This document shows, in pieces, positions 24,385-28,656 of a stretch of 41,416 nucleotides of DNA. Within the stretch, counting starts at the first letter, position 1. Each line of letters begins with the position of its first letter. The position numbers and the translations under genes are program-made. The notes under the pieces are model-generated. The model made no database searches. It saw nothing but the letters and a program-made list of their open reading frames with translations, and was not told the origin of the DNA. Source of the DNA: Motilibacter deserti (GTDB lineage: Bacteria; Actinomycetota; Actinomycetes; Motilibacterales; Motilibacteraceae); the NCBI RefSeq assembly GCF_011250635.1, contig NZ_JAANNP010000003.1, positions 100,697 to 142,112 on the forward strand, in the 5' to 3' direction.

Positions 24385-25815
24385 TCACCGCTGGCGGTCA
24401 CGTACGAGGCCGTCGGCCAGGGGCACGGAGGCGTCCTCCTCTATCGGCTTGCGCTGCTCGGGCGGCGTGTAGATCCCCGTGGCCTGCGCCGCGGCGAGCC
24501 GTGCGTCCTCCGGCCGGACGACCGACAGCTGCGTCGACTCCGGCGGGAGCACGCTCTGCCACAGCCAGTCCGCCGCGACGCGCAGCCGGTTCGCGGCGGC
24601 CGGGAGGGCGTACAGGTGATAGGCCCGGGTGACGACCTTGGCCAGCGGGCCGGTGACCGGGATCCCGAGCGGCTTCGCGACCGCGTCCCAGCCGCCGAGG
24701 TCGGCGACGAGGCCGAGGTCCTTGTGCTTGTACGCCCGCGGCCGGCCGACCCCGAGGCTGGCCGCGAGGTTGCGGCCCAGCACGGTCCCCTGACGCTGGG
24801 CGTGCTGCGCCGTCGGGGGAGTGGCGGGCCGCTCCGCGTCGAGCGCCGTCACGGTGAGGTCGGGGACGGCCGCGGCGTCACCCGCCGCCCAGAGCCCGGG
24901 AACGCCCGGCACCGACAGGTCGGGCTCGACGATCAGCCGGCCGCGCCGGGCCGGCAGGCCGAGGCTCTCGATGAGCGGGCTGGGGGCGATGCCCGCGCCC
25001 CAGAGCAGCGTCCGGGTGGCGACGACGGTGCCGTCGGTGAGGCGGACGCTGCGCTCGTCGGCCGACGCGACGGAGACCCCCAGCCGGACCTCGACCCCGC
25101 GCCGTTCGAGCAGGCGCAGGGCCCGCCTGCCGAGGCTCGGGCCGAGCTCCGGCAGCACCGTGGGCGAGACGTCGACGAGCACCCAGCGGACGTCCTCGGC
25201 GTGCGTGCGGCTCCACCGCCGCTCGATGCGCCGCAGCCAGCGCTGGGTCTGGGCGACGACCTCGGTGCCGGTGTAGCCCGCGCCCACCGCGACGACGGTG
25301 AGCAGCGCGCTGCGCTCCGCCCGGCCTTCGGGCGTGTCGGGCTGGGCGTCGGCGAGGTCGAGCTGCTGGAGCAGGTGGTCACGCAGATAGACCGCCTCGA
25401 CGAGCGTCTTGAGCCCGCGCGCGTTCTCCGGCACGCCGGGGATGGGGAACTGGCGAGTCACCGAGCCCGGAGTGAGGGCGAGCCGGTCCCAGCCCAGCGT
25501 CTGCGCGGTCGTGCCACCGGCCGCGTCGACCGCCTGCACCGTCACGGTCCGCCCGGGCAGGTCGACGGCCGTCACGCGGCCGAGGACGAGGCGCACGCCC
25601 GGCAGCGCCCGACGCAGCGAGACCGCGATGTGGCGGGCCTCGACCACGCCGGTGGCGACCTCGGGCAGCAACGGGCTGTAGAGCAGGTAGTCCGTCGGGT
25701 TGACGAGCGTGAGCTCGGCCGTGCCCGCGGGCAGGTGGCGCTGCAGGTGGCGCAGGGCGTAGAACCCGGCGAACCCTCCGCCCACGACGACGATGCGGTC
25801 CCGGTCGCGGCTCAT
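24385..25815 (-). CDS. Type II NADH dehydrogenase (NDH-2-like FAD oxidoreductase)
   Basis: 476 residues, the size of NDH-2, which passes electrons from NADH to quinone at the membrane without pumping protons. The FAD motif GGGFAG is at residues 12-17, the NADH motif GAGYTG at 178-183, and the second FAD contact is the LWAAGDAAAVPD segment. The C-terminal region (around HLYALPAAANRLRVAADWLW) is the amphipathic membrane-binding part. ATG at 25815 has AGGAGG upstream. A perfect ECF41-type promoter at 25869-25895 reads toward it, with ~50 nt leader. Confidence 0.9.
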   Translation of the reverse strand: MSRDRDRIVVVGGGFAGFYALRHLQRHLPAGTAELTLVNPTDYLLYSPLLPEVATGVVEARHIAVSLRRALPGVRLVLGRVTAVDLPGRTVTVQAVDAAGGTTAQTLGWDRLALTPGSVTRQFPIPGVPENARGLKTLVEAVYLRDHLLQQLDLADAQPDTPEGRAERSALLTVVAVGAGYTGTEVVAQTQRWLRRIERRWSRTHAEDVRWVLVDVSPTVLPELGPSLGRRALRLLERRGVEVRLGVSVASADERSVRLTDGTVVATRTLLWGAGIAPSPLIESLGLPARRGRLIVEPDLSVPGVPGLWAAGDAAAVPDLTVTALDAERPATPPTAQHAQRQGTVLGRNLAASLGVGRPRAYKHKDLGLVADLGGWDAVAKPLGIPVTGPLAKVVTRAYHLYALPAAANRLRVAADWLWQSVLPPESTQLSVVRPEDARLAAAQATGIYTPPEQRKPIEEDASVPLADGLVRDRQR

Positions 25816-25868
25816 GGTGCCTCCTGGCGTTCCTTCCGGCGCCCCGGTCGGGGTGCTCGCACTGCTAG

Positions 25869-25895
25869 GACGGGAGTGCGCCCGAAGGTGTGACA
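25869..25895 (-). promoter_or_regulatory. ECF41-type promoter for the NADH dehydrogenase gene
   Basis: On the minus strand TGTCACA (25895-25889), a 16-nt spacer and CGTC (25872-25869) match the published ECF41 promoter plan exactly. The -10 lies about 54 nt before the dehydrogenase ATG. Confidence 0.75.
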
Positions 25896-25939
25896 TGCCG
25901 CCAGGTGCCGGCTGTGTGACGTGGACGACGCTCCCGTCA

Positions 25940-25966
25940 TGTCACACCACGGACGCCTCGACCGTC
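25940..25966 (+). promoter_or_regulatory. ECF41-type promoter for the epimerase-sigma operon
   Basis: TGTCACA (25940-25946), exactly 16 nt, then CGTC (25963-25966), 44 nt before the ATG at 26011. Together with the minus-strand copy it forms a divergent pair separated by 44 bp between the two -35 elements. Confidence 0.8.
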
Positions 25967-26010
25967 CACACCTCGCAGGGCAAGGACGCAACGACAGTGG
26001 AGGTGGCGGG

Positions 26011-26772
26011 ATGAAGGTCGCGGTCGCCGGTGGCACCGGCCTGATGGGCAGACTCGTGGTTCAGGAATTGGGCAGCAGGAGTCACGACACCGTCGTGGTC
26101 TCGCGCTCCACCGGCGTCGATCTCACGACGGGCGCGGGGCTCGACGCCGCCCTGGCCGGCGCGGACGCCGTCATCGACGTGGGGAACGTGACGACGACGA
26201 GCCGCGCGAAGTCGCTCGCCTACTTCGGCCCCGCCACCGAGCACCTCCTGCGCGCGTCCGAGCGGGCGGGCGTACGCCACCTGGTGGCGCTGTCGGTCGT
26301 CGGAGCGGACCGCGTCGGCCTCGGCTACTACGCGGGCAAGGTCCGCCAGGAGGAGCTGATCGCCGCGGGCGGCGTGCCGTGGACCGTGCTCCGGGCGACG
26401 CAGTTCCACGAGTTCGCCGGGCAGCTGCTCGCGGGCGGGCGCGGCCCCGTCGTGCCGGTCCCGCGGATGCTCAGCCGCCCGGTCGCGGCGTCCGAGGTGG
26501 CCGCCGAGCTCGTACGGCTCGTGGCCGGGCCGGCACAGGGGATGGCCACGCCCATCGCGGGGCCGGAGCCGCTCTGGATGCACGACATGGTCCGCCGCTT
26601 GCTGCGTGCGCGGGGGTCGCGGCGGCTCGTCGTCCCGCTTCCCTTGCCCGGCGCGACGGGGCGGGCCTTGTCGTCGGGCGGCCTGTTGCCCGAAGGTGGC
26701 TTCGTGCACGGGAAGCAGTCCTACGCCGACCACCTCGCCGGTCCGACCGCGCCGGCTCCCGCTTCCCGATGA
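26011..26772 (+). CDS. NAD(P)-binding epimerase/NmrA-like protein
   Basis: 253 residues with an atypical short-chain-dehydrogenase fold: Rossmann motif GGTGLMG at 7-13, the VIDVGNVTT strand and LVALSVVGADR, then Y with AGKVRQEE (YxxxK-like YYAGK). These proteins bind NAD(P) and may be redox sensors or act on carbohydrate or quinone substrates. The ATG is preceded by GTGGAGG. Its stop overlaps the sigma factor ATG (ATGA). An epimerase or oxidoreductase beside the sigma factor is the usual ECF41 'COE' arrangement. Confidence 0.86.
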   Translation: MKVAVAGGTGLMGRLVVQELGSRSHDTVVVSRSTGVDLTTGAGLDAALAGADAVIDVGNVTTTSRAKSLAYFGPATEHLLRASERAGVRHLVALSVVGADRVGLGYYAGKVRQEELIAAGGVPWTVLRATQFHEFAGQLLAGGRGPVVPVPRMLSRPVAASEVAAELVRLVAGPAQGMATPIAGPEPLWMHDMVRRLLRARGSRRLVVPLPLPGATGRALSSGGLLPEGGFVHGKQSYADHLAGPTAPAPASR

Positions 26773-27665
26773 CGCGGGAGGAGGAGCTGGCGGCGCAGTT
26801 CACCCGGGCCCGCTCGCGCTTGGTGGGGATCGCGTACGCCATCGTCGGCACCGTCGCGGAGGCGGAGGACGTCGTGTCCGACTGCTGGCCCCGGCTCGTC
26901 GCAGCGGACGGCGAGGAGCGCGTGCGCGACGTCGAGGCGTGGGCGGTCGTGGCCGTCTCCCGCCGCGCGCTGGACGTGCTTCGCTCGGCTCGCGTGCAGC
27001 GGGAGGCGTACGTCGGGCCGTGGCTGCCCGAGCCCGTCGTCGGTGCGCTGCCCCAGCCCTCGGCCGGCGTCGCCGACCCGGCGGACCGCGTCACGCTCGA
27101 CGACTCGGTGAGCTATGCGCTGATGGTCGTGCTCGAGACGCTGTCCCCGGCCGAGCGCGTGGTGTGGGTGCTGCACGAGGTGTTCGGCATGCCGCTGTCC
27201 GAGGTGGCCGGCGTCGTCGGCCGGACTCCGGCGGCCGTCCGCCAGCTGGCCGTCCGCGCACGGGCGCACGTGCGCTCGGGCGCGCCACGGGTGGACGTCA
27301 GCGCGCAGGACCACGGGCGTACGGTCGCCGCCTTCCTCGCCGCCGCCGGGAACGGCGACCTCGCGGGCCTCGTCGCACTCCTCGACCCGGACGTGGTCCT
27401 GACCAGCGACGGCGGCGGCGTCGTCAACGCGGCCCGGCGGCCGGTCACCGGAGCGGAGCGGGTCGCGCGATTCCTGCTCGGCGTGGCCCAGAAGCGCAAG
27501 TGGGGCGCCGGCGACCGCGTCGAGCCCACGGTGGTCAACGGAGGCCCCGGGCTGGCGTTCTACGCCGAGGGCGAGCTCAGCTCGGTCGCCGCGCTCACCG
27601 TGGCCGACGGTCGCGTGCTCCGGGTGGACATCGTCCTCGCGCCGGCGAAGCTGCGGCGGGCGTAG
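26769..27665 (+). CDS. ECF41-family RNA polymerase sigma factor with SnoaL-like C-terminal domain (SigJ-like)
   Basis: 298 residues: sigma region 2 (about 10-78) and region 4 (about 112-168) are joined by a linker carrying WLPEP (85-89), and a C-terminal SnoaL-like domain (about 185-298) contains DGGG (214-217) and ends APAKLRRA. WLPEP, DGGG and the terminal NPxKL-like motif are the hallmarks of ECF41 sigma factors, in which the extra domain controls activity instead of a separate anti-sigma factor. Translationally coupled to the upstream epimerase. Perfect ECF41 promoters at 25940 and 25869 predict autoregulation. Confidence 0.92.
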   Translation: MTREEELAAQFTRARSRLVGIAYAIVGTVAEAEDVVSDCWPRLVAADGEERVRDVEAWAVVAVSRRALDVLRSARVQREAYVGPWLPEPVVGALPQPSAGVADPADRVTLDDSVSYALMVVLETLSPAERVVWVLHEVFGMPLSEVAGVVGRTPAAVRQLAVRARAHVRSGAPRVDVSAQDHGRTVAAFLAAAGNGDLAGLVALLDPDVVLTSDGGGVVNAARRPVTGAERVARFLLGVAQKRKWGAGDRVEPTVVNGGPGLAFYAEGELSSVAALTVADGRVLRVDIVLAPAKLRRA

Positions 27666-28244: not shown

Positions 28245-28293
28245 TGTCACACCTTGGCGGCCGCGTCCGCGCTGCCCGAGGCGGGGTGTGACA
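28245..28293. repeat. Inverted repeat built from TGTCACACC
   Basis: TGTCACACC at 28245-28253 and GGTGTGACA at 28285-28293 are perfect inverted copies 31 nt apart, 23 nt after the preceding stop and upstream of the monooxygenase gene. The arms contain the ECF41 -35 heptamer but no CGTC at 16 nt in either direction. It could be a terminator stem or an operator. Confidence 0.45.
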
Positions 28294-28326: not shown

Positions 28327-28656
28327 GTGATCCTCATCGTCGTGAAGTGGCACGTCCGGGACGAGTACGCCGACCGCTGGCCTGAGCTGGTCCGCGAGTT
28401 CACCGAGGCCACCCGGGCCGAGCCCGGCAACCGGTTCTTCGAGTGGTCGCGCAGCGTCGACGACCCGTCCACGTGGGTGCTGGTCGAAGGGTTCGCCGAC
28501 TCCGCCGCCGGCGCCGAGCACGTCGGCGGGGCGCACTTCCAGAAGGCGATCGCGCAGTTCCCCGACTACGTCAGCCGGACGCCCGAGATCATGTACGTCG
28601 ACTCCGCCGATCTCGACGGGTGGGGGCCGATGGCCGAGGTGCAGCCGCGCGGCTGA
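28327..28656 (+). CDS. Antibiotic biosynthesis monooxygenase (ABM) family protein
   Basis: 109 residues with the dimeric alpha-beta barrel ABM fold: IVVKWHVRDEYADRWPELVREFTEATRAEPG at the start (shown in pieces: IVVKWHV, EFTEATRAEPGN), FFEWSRSVDDPSTWVLVEGF, and a conserved His in the AEHVGGAHFQKAI segment. Family members include quinol monooxygenases such as YgiN; activity here is not assignable. GTG start with a leaderless promoter. Confidence 0.85.
   Translation: MILIVVKWHVRDEYADRWPELVREFTEATRAEPGNRFFEWSRSVDDPSTWVLVEGFADSAAGAEHVGGAHFQKAIAQFPDYVSRTPEIMYVDSADLDGWGPMAEVQPRG

Follow-up and report, generated by a model that had tools for sequence, protein, structure and literature searches.

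A gap of 195 bp, counted from one start codon (ATG, 25815) to the other (ATG, 26011), separates two divergent transcription units in the window, as the whole analysed stretch of 41,416 bases is called here, and carries in each direction what looks like an ECF41-type promoter. The question raised by this locus is whether one sigma factor drives from this gap both its own operon and a gene of the type II NADH dehydrogenase (NDH) kind, and which signal such an arrangement would serve. The reading proposed here, to which we assign a probability of about 0.85, is a local, self-activating divergent ECF41 circuit that would drive the epimerase-sigma operon together with the NDH-2 gene.

Promoters and genes around the gap

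The original prediction placed one TGTCACA-N16-CGTC on each strand of the gap, with equal spacing, and a pattern search of the window agrees. On the minus strand, towards the NDH gene, the match occupies 25869..25895, with the -35 box TGTCACA at 25895-25889 and the -10 box CGTC at 25872-25869, 53 nt before the ATG, and is followed by an AGGAGG ribosome-binding site at 25820..25825 (read as 25825-25820); on the plus strand, towards the epimerase and sigma genes, it occupies 25940..25966, with the -35 box at 25940-25946 and the -10 box at 25963-25966, 44 nt before the ATG, and is followed by a GGAGG ribosome-binding site at 25999..26003. Both are exact matches, and both are kept in the single other genome of the genus returned by the searches (G001, hereafter the congener). 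Widening of the spacer to TGTCACA-N14-18-CGTC gave exactly two matches in the window, both with N16. The published plan that had been claimed for the motif is indeed found in the available text of PMC3426412, where TGTCACA-N16-CGTC is defined as the ECF41 promoter and the COE-sigma operon is driven from the COE promoter; here each site joins TGTCACA and CGTC by a spacer within 16 +/- 1 and stands before a COE or ECF gene. A longer NDH reading frame from 25896, which would bring the -35 box inside the gene, was rejected since the upstream frame is not conserved in the congener, where, by eye, it stops at a TGA overlapping the NDH start.

The plus-strand unit (26011-27665) is composed of a gene for a predicted NAD(P)-binding epimerase/NmrA-like protein of 253 aa (26011..26772), assigned by translation and Pfam, and a gene for an ECF41/SigJ-type sigma factor of 298 aa (26769..27665), assigned by translation, Pfam, NCBIfam and a solved relative. 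Since the start codon of the sigma gene shares an ATGA with the stop of the epimerase gene, both are very probably transcribed as one operon. The epimerase passed the Pfam cut-offs for NAD_binding_10 (1.2e-12) and Epimerase (3.6e-05; PF01370, 23.8 bits, cut-off 20.9), the latter placing it among the COE partners, and stayed under the cut-off for NmrA (3.7e-04). That the downstream gene encodes an ECF41 sigma factor is supported by the full-length model NF007214 SigJ (306.6 bits, cut-off 271), by the match to the best solved relative, SigJ 5xe7 (E 1.1e-47), and by the WLPEP linker within the stretch YVGPWLPEP, a feature attributed to ECF41 in the accessible part of PMC3426412; TIGR02957 SigX4 reached 289 bits, under its cut-off of 323.25, and in Pfam Sigma70_r2 and Sigma70_r4_2 were over their cut-offs and SnoaL_2 under it (23.6 bits, cut-off 27). 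The search of the own genome (G000) with the sigma protein gave four matches, the next best of which (L208) fits SigX5/PRK08241, not SigJ, and was rejected as a second ECF41; the sigma factor is apparently the only one of the ECF41/SigJ type found in this genome. Control of activity by the C-terminal extension is described for the ECF41 group in the sections at hand of PMC3426412 and PMC8999054, with the extension, according to the latter, restraining the sigma factor until a conformational change, which a small ligand probably brings about, sets it free. In PMC8103513 a role in oxidative stress is attributed to only some of the ECF41 members.

The minus-strand gene (24385..25815) encodes a type II NADH dehydrogenase-like protein of 476 aa (P0003), as judged by translation, Pfam and solved relatives. 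The enzymes of the NDH-2 family re-oxidise NADH with quinone. Its Pyr_redox_2 domain (PF07992) scored 3.8e-40, or 138.6 bits at a cut-off of 26.1, and its best solved relatives are NDH-2 enzymes, with 9mqy at E 2.6e-41 (residues 3-414), the yeast Ndi1-type 4g6g at E 4.2e-23, and further 9pxk, 4nwz, 5na1 and Ndi1-type entries, so that the likeness covers the flavin and NADH domains of solved enzymes and the divergent target may well be called NDH-2-like, as had been predicted. The NCBIfam search with this protein gave no model over its cut-off, and its stretch PTAQHAQRQG resembles what we take to be the AQxAxQ quinone-site motif. The own genome also encodes two more NDH-2-like proteins (41% and 38% identity) and has two matches to the 30-kDa subunit of complex I, for which reason the NDH under study would be an accessory enzyme, and these other NDH-2-like proteins and complex I genes could mask any effect of it.

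Chance, conservation and other sites in the genome

Dinucleotide shuffles of the window (n=100) gave a mean of 0.14 matches and reached two matches in 2 of 100; the match count in the window is by itself modest evidence. The original prediction also depended on the motif being infrequent in the source genome, which stood in part: on both strands of its 4,993,991 bases in 269 contigs the exact TGTCACA-N15-17-CGTY has just five sites, two of them in the 195-bp gap, yet this number is near background, the reversed-pattern control having two. The N16 spacer occurs in four of the five sites (~4e-7 per strand position), and two divergent matches in one given 195-bp gap would arise by chance at ~1e-8, an arithmetic estimate that leaves out the adjacency of the gap to the sole ECF41-type gene found. 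The five related genomes have 4, 0, 4, 1 and 7 exact sites against 3, 2, 3, 0 and 11 for the control; counts of the exact motif are close to those of the control in each of the six genomes searched, and the motif alone predicts no regulon. A promoter pair arisen as a chance match, which these shuffle and control counts would favour, is nevertheless very nearly out of the question, because the pair is co-located beside the only ECF41-type gene found in the genome, and orientation, equal spacing and conservation speak against it as well. The two exact N16 promoters out of five genome sites, with the sole ECF41/SigJ-type sigma gene directly downstream, rather argue for the divergent circuit.

None of the other sites of the own genome was accepted as part of a regulon. 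The amt site (L002 1501-1527), which has a counterpart in the congener (L191 1501-1527), overlaps GTCAC-n6-GAAAC, matched by eye in both species to the GlnR a-site/b-site plan, and an exact ECF41-like match at this ammonium transporter gene is a false positive for motif scans. At L006 (1501-1527) 47 nt separate the exact motif from what may be the ATG of a gene for a short-chain dehydrogenase (adh_short), and no counterpart is evident among the four sites of the congener, of which L200 is unplaced relative to genes; for L001 (N17) and L003 (N18, found by the wider pattern only) no fitting placement before a gene was seen.

The TGTCACA boxes of the window outside the gap are limited to an inverted pair, TGTCACACC...GGTGTGACA, at 28245 (+) and 28293 (-), which precedes a small gene near 28328, by eye of the antibiotic-biosynthesis-type monooxygenase kind, and neither box has a -10 at N15-17; in a 12-kb stretch of the congener TGTCACA boxes are absent except for the main pair. 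This inverted TGTCACACC pair lacking a -10, together with the TGTCACA that forms part of GlnR-like boxes at the ammonium transporter gene, might mark the boxes of the gap as binding sites for some other regulator instead of promoter elements, which is most improbable in view of the -10 CGTC at exactly N16 at both sites, directed outward to the start codons beside an adjoining ECF41 gene, and of the retention of the -10 boxes in the congener.

The congener keeps the order of the NDH gene divergent from the epimerase-sigma unit, along with both promoters, and its sigma protein is 88% identical. When paired by position without gaps, the motif bases of the promoters are identical in 22/22 cases and the spacer bases in 16/32, and the -35 boxes are 20 bp apart in the congener against 44 in the window; the keeping of both promoters with changed spacers argues for the circuit supposed in the original prediction. 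When the whole gap is aligned globally with gaps allowed, the NDH-side -35 box of the congener falls on the neighbouring TGTGACG (25915-25921) instead of the corresponding box, which makes the history of this box uncertain. The NDH gene of the congener (L026 7005-8365) has an early frame shift in the assembly, about codons 57-60, and therefore NDH may not be needed there.

Among the fetched sigma loci of relatives, the congener included, 7/15 have the exact TGTCACA-N16-CGTC before the sigma gene or its operon, which is a further reason for the circuit, as is the finding of no sigma-70-like promoter in the 195-bp gap. The nearest sequenced sigma relatives with the motif have it mostly on one side only, and three predicted extra sites were inactive in B. 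licheniformis according to the portion of PMC3426412 consulted; both points, and the broken NDH frame in the congener assembly, would suit a state in which activity is confined to the epimerase-sigma promoter, the motif on the NDH side being weak or silent and NDH constitutive from an unrecognised promoter. We consider such a one-sided arrangement improbable, as the match on the NDH side is no less perfect than the other and persists in the congener with a changed spacer, and the gap offers no sigma-70-like promoter in its place. The reading of both promoters by the sigma factor, as in the divergent circuit, is very probable and strongly supported.

Partners of ECF41 in the literature and in public genomes

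In the available part of PMC3426412 the divergent <ECF< >COE> arrangement is given for 55 loci and the motif is placed before 36 ECF and 41 COE genes. The locus under study shares with those ECF41 loci the sigma group, the promoter, the COE-sigma operon and the motif on both divergent sides, and differs in that the COE gene of the operon is an epimerase and that a second divergent target, the NDH-2-like gene, is added. The original prediction had put NDH outside the usual partners of ECF41; this novelty claim is weakened and cannot be kept as worded, because Pyr_redox/_2 products are counted in the usual oxidoreductase class in that text (with NmrA or Epimerase forming the epimerase class), and NDH, with PF07992 over cut-off, belongs to the COE partners; an NDH-type partner beyond the COE classes was accordingly rejected. 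A true NDH-2 partner of ECF41 seems unreported in the literature searched, which for PMC3426412 covered sections of its text. The divergent promoter pair is judged to be real and probably functional, its arrangement being a known one and its NDH partner the unusual part.

For the survey of divergent pairs, a genome collection described as holding 84,980 species was searched with GACG-N16-TGTGACA-N14-44-TGTCACA-N16-YGTC, TGTC being allowed as one -10 box, and at least 118 near-perfect pairs were obtained, of which all 118 listed were analysed, including 11 in which one side or both could not be classified or were too short. A like sigma gene is adjacent in 92/118 listed pairs, lies elsewhere in the fetched DNA in 17, and was not seen there in 9; this adjacency, together with the promoter and autoregulation plan in the text at hand of PMC3426412, is another argument for the circuit. 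Among the matches listed, with the partner classes assigned by phmmer to seeds named by eye and a few of them Pfam-checked, the genes opposite the 92 sigmas are carboxymuconolactone decarboxylase-like (44), ClpP (15), DoxX-like (8), MFS (8), SDR/epimerase (5), FMN-reductase-like (4), MMPL (2), Pyr_redox_2 (2) and cytochrome b (1), with two too short and one unclassified.

A close likeness in plan is that of the sphingomonad loci L152 and L099, in which a divergent pair separates a redox-type gene from an epimerase gene with the sigma downstream on the same strand; in contrast to the window, a carboxymuconolactone decarboxylase-like gene takes the NDH place, and ~0.5 kb separates the matched epimerase and sigma stretches. 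A Pyr_redox_2 gene stands beside an ECF41-like sigma divergently in L084 (Pseudonocardia alaniniphila) and L122, and upstream on the same strand in L037 and L040, and these four loci are thus a precedent for a Pyr_redox_2 partner of ECF41. Their proteins are, however, shorter than NDH here, those of L037 and L040 being ~30% identical to it and phmmer finding no match between it and that of L084; for the L037 and L084 proteins the best relatives with solved structures are NDH-like.

Several other partners were seen in the same survey. Behind a divergent ECF41-type pair, a cytochrome b gene was noted in L061 (599-2281, Haloactinopolyspora) with the sigma adjacent, as well as in L073 (1327-2943, Nonomuraea candida) and L126 with no sigma in the fetched DNA; the predicted cytochrome b is another respiratory-type partner in the survey. 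The ECF41-like sigma faces clpP in 15 of the at least 118 pairs (L053, L054, L069, L120 and 11 more), the four named loci being of Burkholderiales and ClpP being Pfam-checked in L120 only. The MFS (8) and MMPL (2) transporter genes found opposite ECF41-like sigmas across near-perfect pairs (L063, L064, L080, L090, L143 and others) lie outside the published COE classes. A DoxX-like gene diverges from a carboxymuconolactone decarboxylase-like one in 12 listed loci (L041, L042, L045, L072 and 8 more), the named ones mostly of Streptomyces; in most of the 12 the sigma gene lies at another place within the fetched DNA.

The RsrR-like regulator in sister genera and the possible signal

The ECF41 signal is called unknown or likely a small molecule in the consulted parts of PMC3426412 and PMC8999054, and the relatives of the NDH gene offer a comparison that bears on it. 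Of the 30 homologue loci fetched from a longer list, each with ~1.5 kb beyond the match, the ECF41 motif lies next to NDH in two, both of this genus, and the idea of a conserved ECF41-NDH link across the class was dropped, as no motif lies next to NDH in the other 28. Within 393 genomes of the class, the NDH homologues that come nearest after that of the congener belong to G002 and G003, which represent two other genera of the same family; these homologues are 76-77% identical. The NDH gene in both comes next after an NmrA-like gene on the same strand in one operon, no ECF41 motif or matching sigma was found in the fetched DNA, and an Rrf2 gene (Pfam 4.8e-31 for the G002 protein) diverges from the operon. 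The nearest solved relative of this Rrf2 protein is 6hsd (E 6.1e-65, 154/159 residues aligned), presumably the S. venezuelae RsrR.

The gap between the Rrf2 gene and this operon in G002 and G003 holds two TGTCCGAG half-sites, compared by eye with the nmrA-rsrR probe of PMC5015018, which in the part seen also holds two, so that an RsrR-like Rrf2 gene diverges from an NmrA-like one with repeated TGTCCGAG in between, as expected of an RsrR-type module. According to the same source, RsrR is a [2Fe-2S] protein that binds DNA under control of its redox state; its gene diverges from one of the NmrA type, and its class 1 targets belong to NAD(P)H metabolism. No phenotype of the rsrR mutant was seen there, and the NmrA gene alone among those targets changed significantly in expression. 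The likeness of G002 and G003 to the Streptomyces venezuelae locus, as documented there, is that of a redox regulator divergent from an NmrA-type gene, whereas this genus has no RsrR-like protein and has ECF41 in that position. At E 1e-15 the RsrR-like protein was found in G002 and G003 only, among the five family genomes searched, and not in G000, G001 or G004; the last of these possesses a sigma of the ECF41 type together with a promoter of its own, and no close NDH homologue (best E 1.5e-82). The two regulators are complementary beside NDH within the family, ECF41 occurring in this genus and the RsrR-like protein in G002 and G003, and the presence of the RsrR-like gene beside the NmrA-NDH operon there, with none in G000 and G001, also argues for the divergent circuit.

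It seems from this comparison that ECF41 replaced a redox-poise regulator beside NDH, and on the simplest reading, the direction of which is inferred, the NDH-2 gene was taken over by a cassette of epimerase and ECF41, with loss of RsrR-NmrA. A tree of 25 epimerase proteins groups both members from this genus with the ECF41-linked one of G065 (98/98) and not with the RsrR-linked ones of G002 and G003; the G065 branch is long (row G065_L027 flagged), and linkage must have switched between ECF41 and RsrR at least twice on this tree.

The divergent circuit would work as follows. On a signal sensed by the fused C-terminal domain, the sigma-bound RNA polymerase would start at both TGTCACA-N16-CGTC promoters, and the epimerase-sigma operon would be raised in what we infer to be positive autoregulation, while the divergent output would raise the accessory NDH-2, by which NADH would be re-oxidised with quinone and with no proton pumping. 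This NDH-2 would belong to a module that in the relatives is run by the RsrR-like regulator with a different NmrA-like protein, the epimerase-ECF41 cassette occupying in this genus the RsrR-NmrA place. Of the original prediction of a redox-linked circuit, the redox link is still conjecture, but it gains unexpected support from the RsrR comparison, on the basis of which redox poise is put forward as a hypothesis for the ECF41 signal. A fuller version, in which ECF41 would be the functional substitute for RsrR, the signal would lie in the redox status of NAD(P)H or quinone, and NDH-2 would feed back on it, is tentative and, with its parts taken jointly, rather unlikely; the NDH-2 and NmrA-type output, under a [2Fe-2S] Rrf2 in the sister genera, would be here under the ECF41 sigma, redox status would possibly be read through the SnoaL-like domain, and the consumption of the signalling NADH by NDH-2 would close a negative feedback loop.

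ECF41 factors are widespread. The apparent exchange of ECF41 at this locus with a regulator reported to be redox-responsive is a testable lead to the ECF41 signal, and the hypothesis that the NAD(P)H or quinone redox state acts on the two promoters is concrete and cheap. With this locus, the targets that ECF41 probably controls would extend to a respiratory-type one, next to the cytochrome b and ClpP partners from the survey.

The RsrR-like loci of the class number 28, from 28/393 genomes, with flanks of ~1.5 kb beyond the match; within these flanks an NmrA-like neighbour is present in 18/28 and an NDH-like one in 8/28, seven of these at 49% identity or more, and 20/28 have no NDH within the fetched flank. 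The RsrR-like Rrf2, NmrA-like and NDH-2 genes were observed together as a recurrent actinobacterial module in L205 (3769-6452), L206 (4759-7418), L223-L226 and L230.
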